Origin: Streptosporangiales bacterium
GTDB taxonomy: Bacteria > Actinomycetota > Actinomycetes > Streptosporangiales > Streptosporangiaceae
Length of the DNA stretch: 32,883 nucleotides
Direction of reading: 5' to 3'
Assembly (NCBI GenBank): GCA_009380095.1
Contig: WHSL01000042.1
Coordinates: 1-32,883 of the forward strand
Under the pieces are notes generated by a model. It made no database searches and was not told the origin of the DNA. It saw nothing but the letters and a program-made list of their open reading frames with translations. Of the stretch, positions 12,098-19,527 are shown piece after piece; position 1 is the stretch's first letter, and each line of letters begins with the position of its first letter. Both the position numbers and the translations under genes were made by a program.

Positions 12098-12165
12098 GCC
12101 TTCCACCCTGCACTGTAGAGACCCGCTAGTTGGATGCGGACGAGCACGAAGTTTTTTCGCGATCC

Positions 12166-12184
12166 TTTGTGCGAGTCCTACAAA
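12166..12184 (-). promoter_or_regulatory. Candidate FasR operator / fab operon promoter region
   Basis: Between fasR and fabD the minus strand reads TTTGTAGGACTCGCACAAA, an inverted repeat with 5-bp arms (TTTGT/ACAAA) and a 9-nt spacer, about 70 nt before the fabD start. It is followed by an AT-rich GAAAAAACTT. FasR-type PucR regulators are known to bind upstream of fabD in Streptomyces. Assigning this repeat as the site is inference. Confidence 0.5.
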
Positions 12185-12250
12185 CGCTGGGTCCCGTGCG
12201 GTGAGCCAGATCACGATTGTCGCAGAGCCGGACGGCCGGGTGGCACAGGG

Positions 12251-13438
12251 TCACGACTCCTTGGCGGCCGCGCGGTCACGGAGCCGTCCGCAGGTGAGCG
12301 CGATCTGCAACGCGTACGCGGACCGGCCCTCGGAGGGGACGTACCCGGTCAGCTCGGCGATCCGGCGCAGCCGGTAACGCACCGTGTTCGGGTGCACGAA
12401 CAGCATCCGGGCGGTGGCCTCCAGCGAGGCGCCGTGCTCCAGGTACGCGGTCAGCGTGTCCAGCAGGGGGGAGCCGGCGCGGCCCAGCGGCTCGTACGCG
12501 GTCTCGATCAGCTCCTCGCGCGCCTCCGTGTCGCCGTCCAGGGCGCGCTCCGGCAGCAGGTCCTCGGCCAGCACCGGGCGCGGCGCCTCCGGCCAGCCGG
12601 GCGCGGCGCGCAGCCCGTTCACCGCGATGCGCGCGGACAGCGTGGCGGACTGCAGGTCGGGCACCTGCGGGCCGATCACCACCGGGCCCGGGCCGAAGTG
12701 CCCCACCAGCGGCAGCACCGCCTCCTCCGGCTCGTCCGTGCCGCCCACGATCACGATCAGCCGGCTGCCCTGCGCCCCGGCCAGCACGTCGAGCCGGGCC
12801 TTCCGGGCGGCGGAGCGAACCTCGTCGACGAGCAGCTCCGGGTCCTCCTCGGGCATGTGCCCGGCGATGGCCAGCACCGGCGTGGAGGACCAGCGCAGCG
12901 CGGCCGCCCAGGACTGCAGGCTCTCCCCGCCCTCGCCGCGGACCAGGGCGTCCACGATCAGCGCCTCCAGGCGGGCGTCCCACGCGCCGCGGGACTCGGC
13001 CGCGCGGGCGTAGACGTACGCGGCGGAGAACGCGACCTCGCGGGCGTACCGCAGCACCGCGTCCAGCAGCTGCCGCTCGCCGCCGGGCGCGGCGAGCTCC
13101 GTGACCTGCGTCTCCACCACATCGATGACGACGCGGACCATCTCCACGGTCTGCTGCAGGGTAACCGCGCGGGTGAGCTCGCGCGGCGCGGTGCCGAACA
13201 CCTCGCCGGTGATGGCCGGGCGGCCGCGGCCGGGGTGCTTGAACCAGTCCACGAAGGCGGCGATGCCGGCCTGCGCGACCAGGCCGACCCAGGACCTGTT
13301 CTCCGCGGACATGGTGCGGAACCAGGGCAGATGCCGCTCCATGCTCACGGTCGCGGCGGTGCCCAGCGTGCCCATGGCGCGCTCCAGCCGGCGGGCGGTC
13401 TCCTCCCGCGTGGCCGCCTCCTGTGGTGTCTCCTGCAC
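12251..13438 (-). CDS. fasR: PucR-family activator of fatty acid synthesis (FasR-like)
   Basis: A 395-aa regulator with a C-terminal PucR helix-turn-helix at about 330-385 (ATARMLFVHPNTVRYRLRRIAELTG). A long N-terminal effector region without a recognised cofactor site and a central GGDEF-like PucR segment complete the family layout. Its position directly upstream of fabD and in the same direction matches FasR (SCO2386) of Streptomyces coelicolor, an activator of the fab operon, and the regulator Rv2242 of M. tuberculosis. The GTG start is immediately preceded by GGAGGT, so initiation may instead occur at the ATG at residue 22. It diverges from the PHP gene across 69 nt. Confidence 0.9.
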   Translation of the reverse strand: MQETPQEAATREETARRLERAMGTLGTAATVSMERHLPWFRTMSAENRSWVGLVAQAGIAAFVDWFKHPGRGRPAITGEVFGTAPRELTRAVTLQQTVEMVRVVIDVVETQVTELAAPGGERQLLDAVLRYAREVAFSAAYVYARAAESRGAWDARLEALIVDALVRGEGGESLQSWAAALRWSSTPVLAIAGHMPEEDPELLVDEVRSAARKARLDVLAGAQGSRLIVIVGGTDEPEEAVLPLVGHFGPGPVVIGPQVPDLQSATLSARIAVNGLRAAPGWPEAPRPVLAEDLLPERALDGDTEAREELIETAYEPLGRAGSPLLDTLTAYLEHGASLEATARMLFVHPNTVRYRLRRIAELTGYVPSEGRSAYALQIALTCGRLRDRAAAKES

Positions 13439-13465
13439 ACCTCCAGACTGCCAGGTCTTCCGGCG

Positions 13466-13497
13466 GTACCCGGGAAGGTGTCACCCCCTGCGGGTAC
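13466..13497. promoter_or_regulatory. Nested inverted repeats in divergent fasR/PHP promoter region
   Basis: Outer arms GTACCCG (13466-13472) and CGGGTAC (13491-13497) enclose the palindrome GGTGTCACC (13477-13485). They sit in the 69-nt gap between the divergent starts of fasR and the PHP gene. This is a plausible operator for one or both genes. Confidence 0.4.
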
Positions 13498-13507
13498 GGT
13501 CGTGGCT

Positions 13508-14530
13508 ATGACGCCGGAGGAGGCGCTGGGCAGGATCGCGTTCCTGCTCGAGCGCGCGCTTGAACCGTCGTACCGGGTGCGGGCCTTCCGCAAGGCCGCG
13601 GGGGTGGTCGCCGCCGTGCCCGAGGAGCAGCTGCGCGCCCGCGCCGCCGCGGGCACGCTGACCGCGCTCAACGGCATCGGCAAGGTCACCGCCACGGTGA
13701 TCACCGAGGCGCTGAACGGCGAGGTCCCCGTCTACCTGCGGCGGCTGGAGGATCTCCCCGATGAGCCGCTGGACGAGGCGGCCGGCGGGCTGCGCGCGGC
13801 GCTCAAGGGCGACCTGCACTCGCACTCGGAGTGGTCCGACGGGGGCAGCCCGATCCGGGAGATGGCGGAGACGGCCCGCGCGCTCGGGCACGCGTACCTC
13901 GCGCTCACCGACCATTCGCCGCGGCTCCGGGTGGCCCGCGGGCTGTCCGCCGAGCGGCTCGTGGAGCAGCTCGACGTGGTCGCCGCGCTGAACGAGGAGC
14001 TCGCGCCGTTCCGCATCCTCACCGGCATCGAGGTCGACATCCTGGAGGACGGCACGCTCGACCAGCGGCCCGACCTGCTCGACCGGCTCGACATCGTCGT
14101 CGCCTCGGTGCACTCCAAGCTGGCCATGGGCCAGCGGGACATGACCCGGCGGATGCTGCGGGCCATCGCCGACCCGCACGTCGACGTGCTCGGCCATGTC
14201 ACCGGCCGGCTCATCAAGGGCGAGCGGGGGCGGCGCGGGGAGTCCCAGTTCGACGCGGCGGCGGTGTTCGCCGCCTGCGCCGAGCACGACGTGGCGGTGG
14301 AGATCAACAGCAGGCCCGAGCGGCTCGACCCGCCGAAGCGGCTGCTCCGGCTGGCCGTCGAGGCGGGCTGCGTGTTCTCCATCGACTCCGACGCGCACGC
14401 GCCCGGTCAGCTCGACTGGCAGCGCAACGGCTGCGAACGCGCGGTCCGCTGCGGCGTCACCGCCGACCGCGTCATCAACACCCGCGGCATGGAGGATCTC
14501 CTCAAGATCACCCACACCGCCCGCGCCTGA
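13508..14530 (+). CDS. PHP-domain phosphoesterase with N-terminal helix-hairpin-helix
   Basis: A 340-aa protein. Residues 1-75 form a DNA polymerase beta-like 8-kDa/HhH domain (AFLLERALEPSYRVRAFRKA, then the hairpin LTALNGIGKVTATVI). Residues ~100-335 form a PHP domain with a full metal-ligand set: His104/His106 in DLHSHSEWSD, Asp135-His136 in LTDHSP, Glu175, His202 in SVHSK, His230 in LGHVTG, and Asp295/His297 in DSDAHAPG. This is the outline of family X polymerase (PolX) from Gram-positives with the polymerase core removed, which suggests a 3'-end trimming or DNA-repair phosphoesterase (inference). It is convergent with the methyltransferase, 16 nt apart. Confidence 0.88.
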   Translation: MTPEEALGRIAFLLERALEPSYRVRAFRKAAGVVAAVPEEQLRARAAAGTLTALNGIGKVTATVITEALNGEVPVYLRRLEDLPDEPLDEAAGGLRAALKGDLHSHSEWSDGGSPIREMAETARALGHAYLALTDHSPRLRVARGLSAERLVEQLDVVAALNEELAPFRILTGIEVDILEDGTLDQRPDLLDRLDIVVASVHSKLAMGQRDMTRRMLRAIADPHVDVLGHVTGRLIKGERGRRGESQFDAAAVFAACAEHDVAVEINSRPERLDPPKRLLRLAVEAGCVFSIDSDAHAPGQLDWQRNGCERAVRCGVTADRVINTRGMEDLLKITHTARA

Positions 14531-15596: not shown

Positions 15597-16205
15597 TCAG
15601 GCGTCGTCGAGGAGCTGTTCGAGGGTGGCCGGGTCGGCGAAGCCGTTGACCTCGACGGTGCCGTCGGGGCGGACGCGGAGCTCCAGGCGGTTCGGCAGGG
15701 TGGTGAGGTCGAGGTCCGCGTAGCGCGGGGTGAGGTGGTGGAAGCGCTGGTTGGCCGAGCCGACCCAGGGCCGTTCGCGTTCCGGCAGGTCCGCCCGGTA
15801 CGGGCCGTCGACGAGCAGGTCAGTGGCATCGAGCAGCGCGTCGTAGTCGGCTCGGCCGGCCGACCGCAGGTCCTCGAGCACGTGCCCGGTGAACGTCATC
15901 ACCGACAGCCCGTCGCCCCGGACCCGCGCGGCCACGACGGCGAGCGGGCCGGCCTGGTCGAACGGCTCCCCGCCGAGCAGCGTCACGCCCTCCACCCCGT
16001 GCTCTTGGGCCGCCGCACGCACCCGACCGGCCAACTCCTCCGGTGTCACCGGCTCGCCGCCGCGCGGCGACCAGGTGTGCGGGTTGAAACAGCCGGGGCA
16101 CCGGATGGAACAACCCTGCGTCCACACGGCACTCCGCAACCCCGGCCCCTCCGCCGCACTCACGGCCAGGAACCGGTTGACCCACACGACCGCCCTCCCC
16201 GTCAT
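15597..16205 (-). CDS. NrdG-like radical-SAM / 4Fe-4S single-cluster protein
   Basis: A 202-aa protein starting MTGRAVVWVNRF. The CxxxCxxC iron-sulfur motif is C32-SIR-C36-PG-C39, preceded by EGPGLRSAVWTQG and followed by the SAM-binding LLGGEPFDQ, as in glycyl-radical activases such as NrdG. The C-terminal 60 residues go beyond the usual NrdG length. No glycyl-radical enzyme (nrdD, pfl) is in the window, so the partner is unknown. It is the last gene of the five-gene cassette, starting 7 nt after the stop of the HhH membrane protein gene, so it is probably co-translated. Confidence 0.88.
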   Translation of the reverse strand: MTGRAVVWVNRFLAVSAAEGPGLRSAVWTQGCSIRCPGCFNPHTWSPRGGEPVTPEELAGRVRAAAQEHGVEGVTLLGGEPFDQAGPLAVVAARVRGDGLSVMTFTGHVLEDLRSAGRADYDALLDATDLLVDGPYRADLPERERPWVGSANQRFHHLTPRYADLDLTTLPNRLELRVRPDGTVEVNGFADPATLEQLLDDA

Positions 16206-16212
16206 CCGCGCA

Positions 16213-17127
16213 TCAGGTATCGACGATGCGAGGGCCGGTCTCGGGTGGGCCGGGGGAGCGCCGTGGGCCGGGCGGGGACCCGTGGAGCGGGCCGGCGACG
16301 ACCTGGTCGCGGAGGCGGACGATCTGGTGCGGGGCCAGGCCGAGGGTACGCCCGAAGTCCTCGGCGTCGGCGAACCCACGCCGCCGCTGCCGCTCGGCCA
16401 CCGCCCGCTGCGCCAACGCCAGGTCCATCCCCGGCAAACCCGCCAACTCCTCGGCCGACGCCACGTTCAGGTCCACAGGCCCCGCGGGCCCGGCCCCCGC
16501 CTCGAGGAACTGGCCTGCCCCCCCGATCCCGGAGGCCGTGTGCGCCGCAGGTGCGCCCCCGACCGGCGAGGCGGCGCCGGGTGGCCACGGGGCGGCGGCG
16601 GAGTGCGCCGAGTGGTTCGGCTGCCCGGGGTAGGCGGTGGGGTGCGCCGAGTGGTCCGGCTGCGCGGGGTGGTGCGGCGGTGCCGGGTAGGTGGCGGGGT
16701 GGCCTGGGGCGAGGTAGGCGGTGGGGGGTTGGGCCAGGGGGGTGCCGGAGGCGGCGAAGCCGGGGTGGCTGTGGGTGCCCTCGAGGGCGCGGAGGCGTAG
16801 GCGTTCGGGGATGAGGGCGAACGCGTGCACGGCGGGGACGAGCCAGGCGGCCAGGAGGAGGATGGCGGCCGCACCCTCCAGCGGGGTCAGCTCGTCGTCG
16901 GGCCCCTCCGGTGCGATCGACAGCACGGTGACGGCCGCGACCGTCAGCGCCAGGTAGCCCGCCGCGAACAGCAGCCAGGAGCGCCGGTGCGCGCGGACGC
17001 CCACGTAGAGGAACGACACCCAGCCGAAGAAGCCGAGCAGGAACGTCGGCAGGATCCAGAGGCTGTGCAGGATCCGCCAGCCGACCCCCTTGCCGGCCAG
17101 CGCCCGCGCACCCTCCACGGATCTCAT
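16213..17127 (-). CDS. Three-helix membrane protein with ComEA-like HhH domain
   Basis: A 304-aa protein. Three membrane segments lie at about 19-45, 50-72 and 85-106. A His/Pro/Ala/Tyr/Gly-rich linker follows (about 120-205), including a 13-residue repeat (QPDHSAHPTAYPG, then QPNHSAHSAAAPW). Residues ~218-277 form a helix-hairpin-helix pair (VDLNVASAEELAGLPGMD, then GFADAEDFGRTLGLAPHQI) like the C-terminus of ComEA. The HhH would place a DNA-binding or protein-binding domain on one face of the membrane. No signal peptide or competence genes are nearby. Its ATG overlaps the DUF2997 stop by 4 nt. Function unknown. Confidence 0.85.
   Translation of the reverse strand: MRSVEGARALAGKGVGWRILHSLWILPTFLLGFFGWVSFLYVGVRAHRRSWLLFAAGYLALTVAAVTVLSIAPEGPDDELTPLEGAAAILLLAAWLVPAVHAFALIPERLRLRALEGTHSHPGFAASGTPLAQPPTAYLAPGHPATYPAPPHHPAQPDHSAHPTAYPGQPNHSAHSAAAPWPPGAASPVGGAPAAHTASGIGGAGQFLEAGAGPAGPVDLNVASAEELAGLPGMDLALAQRAVAERQRRRGFADAEDFGRTLGLAPHQIVRLRDQVVAGPLHGSPPGPRRSPGPPETGPRIVDT
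16603..16669 (-). repeat. 39-bp tandem repeat in linker of HhH membrane protein
   Basis: Two 28-nt matches starting gtgcgccgagtgg (16603-16630 and 16642-16669) differ at two positions and are spaced 39 nt apart. This gives the 13-residue repeat in the His/Pro-rich linker. Confidence 0.7.
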
Positions 17128-17381
17128 CGTCCCTGCTCGCCGACATCCCGGGCGGGCGTCCCGGCCTCCGCCGTGACCGTCCGGTCCGTCGTGGCGGACC
17201 GGTCGTCGGCCGCCACGCGGTGGTAGTCCTCCGTGAAGTTCGACTCGACGGTGGTGGCGTCCAGCAGGTCCTCCAGCAGCGCCACGTCGTCGAGGCAGGC
17301 CGAGCCGAAGACGCCCTTGGTCTCGGCGCGCACGGTGCCGTCCCGGCCGACCGTGATGATGAGTCGTTTGACCATGGTCAT
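17124..17381 (-). CDS. DUF2997 family protein
   Basis: An 85-aa protein starting MTMVKRLIITV. The first 55 residues match DUF2997: a beta strand RLIITVGRDGTVRAETKG, then GSACLDDVALLEDLL with a conserved Cys29. The tail of 30 residues is polar and probably disordered. DUF2997 proteins are small and uncharacterised; in cyanobacteria they are found next to DUF1257 (Ycf35) genes. The ATG overlaps the preceding gene's stop by 4 nt, and the stop overlaps the next gene's ATG by 4 nt, so all three should be translated together. The longer frame upstream is shadow sequence of the DUF1257-like gene. Confidence 0.85.
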   Translation of the reverse strand: MTMVKRLIITVGRDGTVRAETKGVFGSACLDDVALLEDLLDATTVESNFTEDYHRVAADDRSATTDRTVTAEAGTPARDVGEQGR

Positions 17382-17824
17382 CGCCCCTCGGCGAGCACGA
17401 GCGTCACCGACCTGTCGACGTTGACCTGCTCGGATTCGACCACCATGCCGACGGATCCGGCCCGCTCGCGGACTCGGCGGCACAGCTCGCGCTGCACGAT
17501 CTCGGCATACGCCGCGTCCACCGCGAGGATCAGCTCCTGGGCGCGGGCGAGGTCGTAGCCCGAACCCTCCACATGGGCCATCATCGCCCCCGACGGGTGC
17601 GGCGTGAACGCCACGGTGACGCCCTGCCAGGCCGCCACCAGCGCGTCGCCCCGCTCGGTGACCTCCGCCTCCTGGGCGGTCAGCGCCTCCGCCAGCAGGT
17701 GCCGGTGGCGCATGCGGGACCGCACGGTCACGGCGTGCTCGGGGGCGTCGCCCTCCGCCAAGGCGGCCCGCACCGCGGCGCCCGCGGCCAGCGCGGCGGG
17801 GATCAGCAGGATCGAGATGCTCAC
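17378..17824 (-). CDS. DUF1257/Ycf35-like protein
   Basis: A 148-aa protein from a GTG start that overlaps the AAA ATPase stop by 4 nt. A hydrophobic N-terminal stretch (about 3-24, ISILLIPAALAAGAAVRAAL) could be a membrane or packing helix. The C-terminal ~85 residues follow the DUF1257 pattern: GVTVAFTPHPSGAMMAHVEG, a helix with AYAEIVQRELCRRVRERA, then the final strands GMVVESEQVNVDRSVTLVLAE. The match is by pattern only and is divergent from chloroplast Ycf35. It is supported by neighbours that are typical partners of this family (Ycf46-like AAA and DUF2997). Function unknown. Confidence 0.72.
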   Translation of the reverse strand: MSISILLIPAALAAGAAVRAALAEGDAPEHAVTVRSRMRHRHLLAEALTAQEAEVTERGDALVAAWQGVTVAFTPHPSGAMMAHVEGSGYDLARAQELILAVDAAYAEIVQRELCRRVRERAGSVGMVVESEQVNVDRSVTLVLAEGR

Positions 17825-19476
17825 AGGTCCAGCCTCCGTCCGCCCCGGGTGGAGGTGACCTCGCCCGTCGGCTCGGCGGGCGCGGCCGGCCCGGCCGCCT
17901 CCTGCCCGTCGAGGTCGGCGATCGCGGTCGCGCTGACCGCCCGCGTGTCGGCCCAGCGGCGCAGCGCCAGGATGTCCTCCGACTGGGTCACCGAGAGTGG
18001 GACCGTGTTGGTCAGCGCGCGTAGCAGGTCGTCGCGGCGCAGCGGGCGGTGCTCGGCGAACGCGTCGAGCAGCCCGGCCACCACCGCCTGCTCGATCTCG
18101 GCGCCGCTGTAGCCCTCGCTGCTCTGCGCCAGCTCGTGCAGCAGCTCGTCGGTGACCGGCAGCTCGGAGGCCACCCAGTCGTCGGTGAGCCGGCGGCGCA
18201 GGTGGACCCGCCAGATCGGGACCCGCTCGGTGGTGGTCGGCAGGTCCACGAAGAAGATCTCGTCGAACCGGCCCTTGCGCAGGAACTCCGGCGGCAGCGT
18301 GCCGATCTGGTTGGCCGTCGCGATCACGAAGACCGGCGCCGTCTTCTCCTGCAGCCAGGTCAGGAACGTGCCGAACACGCGCCGCGCCGTGCCGCCGTCA
18401 CCGCCCTCGCCGCCGACCCCCGCGAAGCCCTTCTCGATCTCGTCGATCCACAGCACGCACGGGGCGATCGCCTCGGCCGTGCGGATCGCGGTCCGCATGT
18501 TCTGCTCGCTGGAGCCGACCAGCCCGGCGAACACCCGGCCGATGTCGAGCCGGAGCAGCGGCACCCGCCACAGCCCGGCCGTGCGCGTCGCGGAGAGGCT
18601 CTTGCCGCAGCCCGGCACCCCGGTGAGCAGCAGCCCCTTCGGGGTGGACAGGTTGTACCGCCGCGCGGCCGCGCCCCAGACGCCGGTGCGCTTGGCCAGC
18701 CAGCGCTTCAGGTTCTCCAGGCCGCCCACGTCGTCGAACCCGGCCCGCGGCTGCACCACCTCGAGGATGCCGGAGCGGAGCACGGCCTGACGCTTCTCCT
18801 CCACGACCACGGCCACGTCGTCGGCGTCGAGCCGGCTGCCGGTGACCAGGGCGCGGGCGAAGGCGTTCTCCGCCTCCTGCAGGGTGAGCCCGCGGGCCGC
18901 CTGGATCAGCCGCTCCCGGTCGTCGCGGGTCACCGCGATCTGCACGCGGCCGGTGCTCTGGTTGGCCGCGACCATGCTGTCGAGCAGTTGGGCGATCTGG
19001 TCCTCGCCGGGCAGGTCGAAGGGGAGCACCGCGATGTCGCGCTCCAGCTCCACCGGGATGCTCAGCACCGGCGCCAGCAGGATCACGCAGCCCGGCGCGG
19101 GGGCGACCTTCAGCTGCGCCGCCACGTCGCGCAGCCGCCGCACCACGGTGGCGTCGGCGTTGCGCCCCTCGGTCCCGCCGAGCAGGGGATGCAGGTCCTT
19201 GAAGACGAACACCGAGGGCTGCATGGGTTGCATGGCCCGCTCCAGGGCCAGCGCGGGGTTGCGCGAGTCGGGTGCGGGCGGCGCGCCCATCGGCGCCAGG
19301 CCGGTGGTGGCGGACCACACGTGCACGCCCCGCACGGTCGGCATCTGCGTGGGGTCGCCCGCGACCGCGCAGATCTCCTGTACGGCCCGCTGTTCCTCAT
19401 GCGTCTCGATGTAGATCAGCGGGTATCGGGCGCGCAGCAGCTGTGCCAGCCGCTCACGGAAACCCGAGGTGGCCAC
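17821..19476 (-). CDS. Ycf46-like AAA+ ATPase
   Basis: A 551-aa protein starting at a GTG ([10 protein letters not shown]) with GAGGAGG 7 nt upstream. Residues 1-235 are the Ycf46-type N-domain ([20 protein letters not shown]). Residues ~245-500 are a classical AAA domain: [15 protein letters not shown], Walker A GVPGCGKS (286-293), Walker [10 protein letters not shown] (Asp345, Glu346), sensor-1 Asn389 and arginine fingers in FLRKGRFDE (Arg400, Arg403). All catalytic residues are present, so it should hydrolyse ATP, probably as a hexamer. The C-terminal tail of ~35 residues is Ala/Pro/Thr-rich. It is first of a five-gene coupled cassette. Ycf46 is known from algal plastids and cyanobacteria; its substrate in actinomycetes is unknown. 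Confidence 0.93.
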
Positions 19477-19527
19477 GGCGGTGCCTCCTCGCTTCGGCCT
19501 GGGGGTGGATCCGGGTGACTCGATCGT

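Follow-up and report, generated by a model that had tools for sequence, protein, structure and literature searches.

A mobile five-gene variant of the AAA+/DUF1257/DUF2997 machine with a radical-SAM protein

What might an AAA+ ATPase, two small proteins, a membrane-associated helix-hairpin-helix (HhH) protein and a radical S-adenosylmethionine (radical-SAM) protein do together when their genes are packed end to end? A locus of this kind lies on contig WHSL01000042.1 of a Streptosporangiales bacterium (GCA_009380095.1), of which we analyzed a stretch of 32,883 nucleotides (nt), referred to here as the window. Three of the protein families concerned, Ycf46, DUF1257 and DUF2997, persist in plastids, cyanobacteria, phages and plasmids, yet have no known biochemical role. 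We find that the locus is a real, mobile and monophyletic five-gene variant of a widespread AAA+/DUF1257/DUF2997 machine, and we tentatively read it as a horizontally mobile, ATP-driven module for protein modification and remodelling.

A five-gene unit and its distribution

Five open reading frames on the minus strand were confirmed at positions 15597-19476, none with internal stops on translation. An earlier note on this DNA had described them as a coupled cassette, and its coordinates, the three 4-nt overlaps (17821-17824, 17378-17381, and 17124-17127) and the 7-nt spacing between the fourth and fifth genes all proved exact; joint production of the five proteins, also claimed there, is supported. 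The genes, with lengths in amino acids (aa), and the ribosome-binding site are as follows.

17821-19476, minus strand: Ycf46-type AAA+ ATPase, 551 aa, GTG start (Pfam AAA, 94 bits, 1.1e-26)
17378-17824, minus strand: DUF1257 (Ycf35)-superfamily protein, 148 aa (PF06868 via relatives; hhalign; AlphaFold2)
17124-17381, minus strand: DUF2997 protein, 85 aa (PF11211, 49.7 bits; cut-off 24.1)
16213-17127, minus strand: transmembrane and HHH_3 protein, 304 aa (Pfam HHH_3, 41 bits; cut-off 27; hydropathy)
15597-16205, minus strand: NrdG-like radical-SAM protein, 202 aa (Fer4_12, 117 bits, 7e-34; Radical_SAM, 45.6 bits)
19484-19490, minus strand: GAGGAGG ribosome-binding site upstream of the first gene's GTG (sequence)

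The conserved neighbourhood that the earlier note had proposed is borne out, since the five families recur in unrelated genera, in several orders and on plasmids. A radical-SAM scan with one genome per species yielded 23 loci, and the five families occur together in nine Amycolatopsis species as well as in Bacillus, Neobacillus, Robertmurraya, Paenibacillus, and Saccharibacillus. The gene order of the window is also found on Arthrobacter, Paenarthrobacter, and Rhodococcus plasmids, those of Arthrobacter and Rhodococcus being typed as conjugative. Gene orders differ among groups (148 and 1257, DUF1257-type genes; 2997, DUF2997; rSAM, radical-SAM gene), and no sixth family is common to all of them.

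AAA-148-2997-HhH-rSAM: window, Arthrobacter, Rhodococcus
AAA-2997-rSAM-148-HhH: Amycolatopsis
rSAM-148-HhH-AAA-2997 and rSAM-HhH-AAA-2997-1257: Bacillales
HhH-rSAM-AAA-1257-2997: contig L047

A tree was built of 102 ATPases. Fourteen of them come from five-gene loci, a label set by gene content inside the fetched flanks, and these group in one clade (Shimodaira-Hasegawa-like approximate likelihood ratio test, SH-aLRT, 99) that spans Actinomycetota, Bacillota, plasmid members, and one IMG/VR contig (L047), which may be bacterial DNA. The five-gene set has moved as a unit between soil bacteria and plasmids.

Among 60 other genera of the host's family, the five-gene set was seen in none, and the only full-length AAA relative, at 46% identity, is encoded by the genome G464. 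DUF2997 was detected in the host alone when an initial 60 relatives were searched, and a phylum sample of 396 genomes gave three carriers (host counted, one below cut-off). Synteny was anchored on aceE, the flanking methyltransferase not being syntenic in relatives: an AhpE-DUF3052-aceE ... pucR-fabD segment is conserved in five relatives without the cassette, and the aceE-pucR interval measures about 3.5 to 9 kb in them. The simplest reading is that the module was inserted into this variable interval. Because the set is absent from the 60 same-family genera and the segment lacks the cassette in the five relatives, the cassette was probably acquired horizontally.

In G464, the AAA, DUF2997, and radical-SAM genes adjoin, and the surrounding 28 kb hold a DUF1257 gene, a MoxR-like ATPase fragment, a vWA-like protein with a DxSxS motif (DASPS), and an eCIS_core protein. 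The same region (G464:C79:24000-52000; L155, L167) also encodes repeated propeller-like proteins. The chromosomal neighbours of the cassette in the window are housekeeping genes. A 798-aa reading frame of the window (12134-14530, plus strand) is partly antisense to a PucR-type regulator frame (12251-13438), and the probable gene within it is a PHP-domain part near 13472-14530.

The three-family core is distributed beyond five-gene loci. AAA+, DUF1257, and DUF2997 co-occur on plasmids of cyanobacteria, Bacillus licheniformis, Candidatus Manganitrophus, and Rhizobium, and relatives of the ATPase are encoded by 382 viral-contig stretches. Among the best 80 of these 382, 28 loci carry DUF1257 and DUF2997 inside the fetched flank, and 10 of the 28 also carry a radical-SAM gene of the same type, three of them near copies. 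The corresponding PHROGs families, phrog_8638 (AAA), phrog_20456 (DUF1257), and phrog_23133 (DUF2997), are all listed as of "unknown function".

Some loci of the wider family have other neighbours. On the Pseudanabaena galeata plasmid pPg_01 (L029), DUF1257 and DUF2997 belong to a gene run that also encodes GrpE, a member of the Hsp70 family, and two ATPases. On the Treponema succinifaciens plasmid pTRESU01 (L030; 56578-70017), radical-SAM and Ycf46-type AAA genes immediately precede a gene for phage baseplate assembly protein V, a hint that the setting is that of a contractile injection system. A separate ATPase lineage on Comamonas and Komagataeibacter plasmids (L037, L038) and the Streptococcus satellite phage Javan368 (L033) follows two or three hypothetical genes of about 160, 570, and 185 aa, which looks like another module.

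Features of the encoded proteins

The second AAA domain of the ATPase is of the active type (Walker A GVPGCGKS, Walker B LWIDEIEK, and RKGRFDE). The first AAA-like domain, about residues 1-232, has no P-loop by inspection; from Walker B onwards it aligns to the second domain (76% probability, E 2e-5). The protein matches phrog_8638 at 1e-141 across residues 5-518, N-terminal domain included, and is 43-45% identical to cyanobacterial plasmid proteins; the Ycf46-type label rests on comparison with this phage, plasmid, and cyanobacterial family. Four sites within the cassette bear on how its products may interact.

15600-15707, minus strand: C-terminal extension of the radical-SAM protein, residues 167-202, like the first hairpin of DUF2997 (hhalign 88.9%)
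17295-17306, minus strand: GxxC site of DUF2997, Gly26 and Cys29 (aligned sequences)
17824-17838, minus strand: C-terminal tail of the AAA+ protein, RRLDL within RGGRRLDL (motif R-x-hydrophobic-D/E-hydrophobic-end)
16216-16230, minus strand: C-terminal RIVDT of the HhH protein, which fits the tail motif imperfectly (comparison with relatives)

The radical-SAM protein carries the cluster motif CSIRCPGC (CxxxCxxC), GGEP, and GSANQR, and resembles NrdG along its full length, scoring 101.8 bits against TIGR02491, below the equivalog cut-off of 126.1. Neither NrdD (TIGR02487) nor a glycyl-radical domain (PF01228) was found in the host genome, which is 97% complete and in which control models matched. 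Since the host lacks both a class III ribonucleotide reductase and a glycyl-radical domain, the protein is, on sequence grounds, not an NrdG by role. The earlier description of it as activase-like therefore holds for the family, but the genome contains no detectable glycyl-radical partner.

Within the extension, Glu175 and Gly188 are invariant in 22 of 22 aligned sequences, and the likeness to the DUF2997 hairpin scores 31.6, compared with 16.2 for the best of 300 column shuffles and 16.5 for the reversed profile. DUF2997 itself has invariant Gly15 and Cys29, with Gly26 conserved in >90% of 35 aligned sequences; it is modelled with modest confidence as a beta-hairpin and a helix (predicted local distance difference test, pLDDT, 72.5). 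On one contig (L048), DUF1257 and DUF2997 are fused in a single reading frame, possibly through a sequencing error. These shared features suggest that the radical enzyme acts on a small cassette protein.

AAA+, DUF2997, HHH_3, and radical-SAM, as named in the earlier note, were assigned by Pfam, and placement of the two small proteins by hidden Markov model succeeded for the 85-aa protein as DUF2997, whereas the 148-aa protein could be placed only through relatives and profile-profile comparison. PF06868 (DUF1257) matches neither the 148-aa protein nor anything else in its own genome, and 5 of 11 homologues match it directly (best 4.7e-5). A profile of the homologues aligns with one of annotated DUF1257 proteins at 95-96% hhalign probability over about 115 columns (score 55, vs ≤ 23.6 in 200 column shuffles). 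These comparisons make it a divergent member of the DUF1257 family whose N-terminus carries an additional hydrophobic segment, residues 5-23, which ordinary DUF1257 proteins lack. The AlphaFold2 model (pLDDT 80.3; predicted template modelling score, pTM, 0.71) is confident except at residues 6-23 and predicts a helix, four strands, a long helix, and two strands. For the DUF1257-like and DUF2997 proteins, profile searches of solved structures gave no convincing match, and Foldseek searches with the models gave none below 0.001. A likeness to adaptin-platform and KA1 folds (VIA-align Z up to 8.9; 79 residues, 1.9 A) was set aside as within the range of a common arrangement.

The AAA+ and HhH proteins have in common a C-terminal tail of the form R-x-hydrophobic-D/E-hydrophobic, seen as GGRTIDF, GRTIDV, and GGRRLDL on ATPases and as GRVIDY, GRIIDF, GVRQLDI, and GRRLEF on HhH relatives. 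In the fetched loci, the motif ends 25 of 27 HhH frames, 43 of 123 AAA frames, and 7 of 5904 others; the count takes stop-to-stop frames of 80 aa or more, many rows are near copies, and the background frames are mostly not genes. Other AAA+ rings bear C-terminal docking tails, and by analogy a natural guess is that the two tails bind a common partner. Three of the seven other tail-bearing frames lie in the gene neighbourhood of the ATPase: L044:5711-6439 (RALDL), L099:7094-7486 (RKMDI), and L052:8127-9089 (RKLEI), the last of which matches DUF6744. As a genome-wide specific marker the tail was rejected, a pattern search of the host's own genome returning nine places, including the end of a GyrB-like frame.

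The HhH protein of the window has three predicted hydrophobic segments (residues 19-98), a His/Pro-rich linker, and a C-terminal HHH_3 domain (217-276). Three such segments are also present in most Bacillales and plasmid relatives. In Amycolatopsis the N-terminus is of another kind, and in the species that were checked the protein shows no clear membrane segment, apart from a marginal stretch of linker in L010. The membrane-bound target envisaged by the earlier note is thus not general. The Amycolatopsis DUF1257 protein also lacks the hydrophobic start, and because the two features co-vary in this single comparison, the membrane part of the HhH protein and the hydrophobic start of the DUF1257 protein may both serve localisation. 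The tail is kept but no HhH domain is visible in the membrane protein of two Paenibacillus loci (L019, L020). A second HHH_3 protein, with GYF_2 and ending in GRGRIIDF, directly follows the cassette in Bacillus sp. PS06 (L015:12070-12933). A likeness of the Amycolatopsis HhH protein to EF-Tu and IF-2 was too weak to retain (E 0.012-0.15).

A possible mechanism and its alternatives

If the cassette is an ATP-driven modification and remodelling module, its AAA+ protein, of whose two AAA domains only the second is active, would assemble as a ring, as its family suggests. The AAA+ and HhH tails would form a shared docking motif for one and the same pocket, which the DUF1257 protein may provide. 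The radical-SAM protein would apply SAM-derived radical chemistry to DUF2997, its presumed substrate, most likely at GxxC, with its DUF2997-like C-terminal hairpin helping to grip that protein. The AAA+/DUF1257 pair might then load, release, or unfold modified DUF2997, and the HhH protein would place the assembly at the membrane in most lineages and on another scaffold in Amycolatopsis. A more specific version, which we consider speculative and on balance unlikely, is that a dedicated radical-SAM enzyme builds a crosslink or cofactor at the GxxC of DUF2997, that the Ycf46-type AAA+/DUF1257 pair loads or removes DUF2997, and that cyanobacterial and plastid Ycf46, Ycf35, and DUF2997 are a radical-SAM-free branch of the same machine.

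Several observations weigh against such a module. The GxxC of DUF2997 is also conserved where no radical-SAM gene is nearby, which implies a role for the motif that does not depend on that enzyme. The match between the radical-SAM tail and DUF2997 covers just 23 columns around a D-G turn, so the likeness could be convergent. Only a third of the broader AAA family has the shared tail, the RIVDT of the HhH protein in the window is an imperfect version of it, and variation of the HhH N-terminus among lineages weakens any one localisation.

A chance operon of unrelated genes would be in keeping with the four-base overlaps common in actinobacteria, but it is refuted by conserved linkage of the same families, in several orders, across two phyla and on plasmids, and we regard it as practically out of the question. 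The radical-SAM protein might instead be a true glycyl-radical activase, with DUF2997 a minimal stand-alone glycyl-radical protein (compare YfiD) and Gly26 its radical site. Its NrdG-like character over the full length, including the GSxNQ motif, would fit, and Gly26 is present in 31 of 31 aligned DUF2997 sequences from radical-SAM-bearing loci and lost in 2 of 25 without a nearby radical-SAM gene. That difference is not significant, however, PF01228 is unmatched in the host genome, the Cys of DUF2997 is better conserved than the Gly, and the protein lacks what we take to be the usual R-x-x-G-Y context of a glycyl radical; we consider this reading very unlikely.

Rather unlikely as well, though less so, is a role in iron-sulfur (Fe-S) or redox stress repair, a role that the cyanobacterial relatives may have too. 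AAA+, DUF1257, and DUF2997 would then deal with damaged proteins, Fe-S proteins among them, while electrons or radicals would come from an Fe-S partner, which is the ferredoxin Fed7 in cyanobacteria and the radical-SAM protein here. In cyanobacteria, a DUF2997-ycf35-fed7 cluster is conserved and Fed7 is required for tolerance of iron limitation and oxidative stress (PMC4284462); in red algal plastids, ycf35 and ycf46 both follow marine versus freshwater habitat (PMC5940233); and loss of Ycf46 in Synechocystis lowers EcaB carbonic anhydrase activity, as cited in PMC7496141. Carriage of the core by phages and conjugative plasmids speaks against such a role, and Ycf46 and Ycf35 are not known to be directly linked in function. 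A possible but doubtful alternative sees in the cassette a pared-down relative of the FtsH ternary systems (vWA-MoxR subsystem 3; Kaur et al. 2020), in which tandem AAA+ proteins have lost the P-loop of the first domain and, in some systems, a radical-SAM protein is proposed to modify a separately encoded peptide (PMC7159879). The AAA+ would here restrain or release an effector and the radical-SAM protein would activate a DUF2997 peptide effector, the trigger being invasion or stress. The patchy and mobile distribution of the cassette fits this, as does the G464 locus, which unites the closest full-length AAA, DUF2997, radical-SAM, and DUF1257 with the MoxR-like, vWA-like, and eCIS_core genes. 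Against it stand the housekeeping neighbours in the window, the presence of the core in phages and cyanobacteria, a PADLOC similarity that is generic (IetA only), and the lack of relatives of the G464 MoxR and vWA-like proteins in the window or the other fetched loci. This conflict-related alternative differs from the modification and remodelling module in purpose more than in mechanism.

Under the module reading, Ycf46, DUF1257, and DUF2997 are linked to one radical enzyme, a likely substrate and residue, and a shared tail motif. Its compact size and its origin in culturable soil bacteria make it possible to rebuild the module in a laboratory host.

Comparison with known systems

PADLOC returned nothing past the generic AAA similarity of the ATPase domain to IetA of the anti-phage defense IetAS (65.9 bits vs an equivalog cut-off of 510), and the cassette contains no protease. 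The phage sets of phrog_8638, phrog_20456, and phrog_23133 comprise the same three families, often adjacent and sometimes with the same radical-SAM protein, but mostly lack the HhH protein and cover broader AAA lineages. With NrdG, the radical-SAM protein shares full-length similarity, CxxxCxxC, GGEP, and GSxNQ; it differs in its sub-equivalog score, its extra C-terminal hairpin, and a host genome without NrdD.

Cyanobacteria and plastids share the core families Ycf46, Ycf35, and DUF2997, and in the cyanobacterial cluster, as in the cassette, an Fe-S protein lies beside DUF1257 and DUF2997. That protein is a ferredoxin, Fed7, in place of a radical-SAM enzyme, and the described cluster has neither an AAA gene nor an HhH protein. 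The existence of this cluster and of the FtsH ternary systems makes the earlier note's claim of an unexplored combination only partly true.

Of the systems described so far, the FtsH ternary conflict systems come closest. Like the cassette, they combine a tandem AAA+ protein whose first domain lacks a P-loop with an adjacent radical-SAM protein and a separate small protein, and both occur in actinobacteria. Unlike them, the five-gene loci have no MoxR or vWA gene, none being recognised in the 32.9-kb window, and include a tail-sharing HhH protein; PMC7159879 does not name DUF1257 or DUF2997. From its architecture and the G464 locus, itself probably an FtsH-ternary-like system, we infer that the FtsH component of PMC7159879 belongs to the present AAA family. 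The cassette may thus work like part of an FtsH ternary system, yet we do not class it as one.

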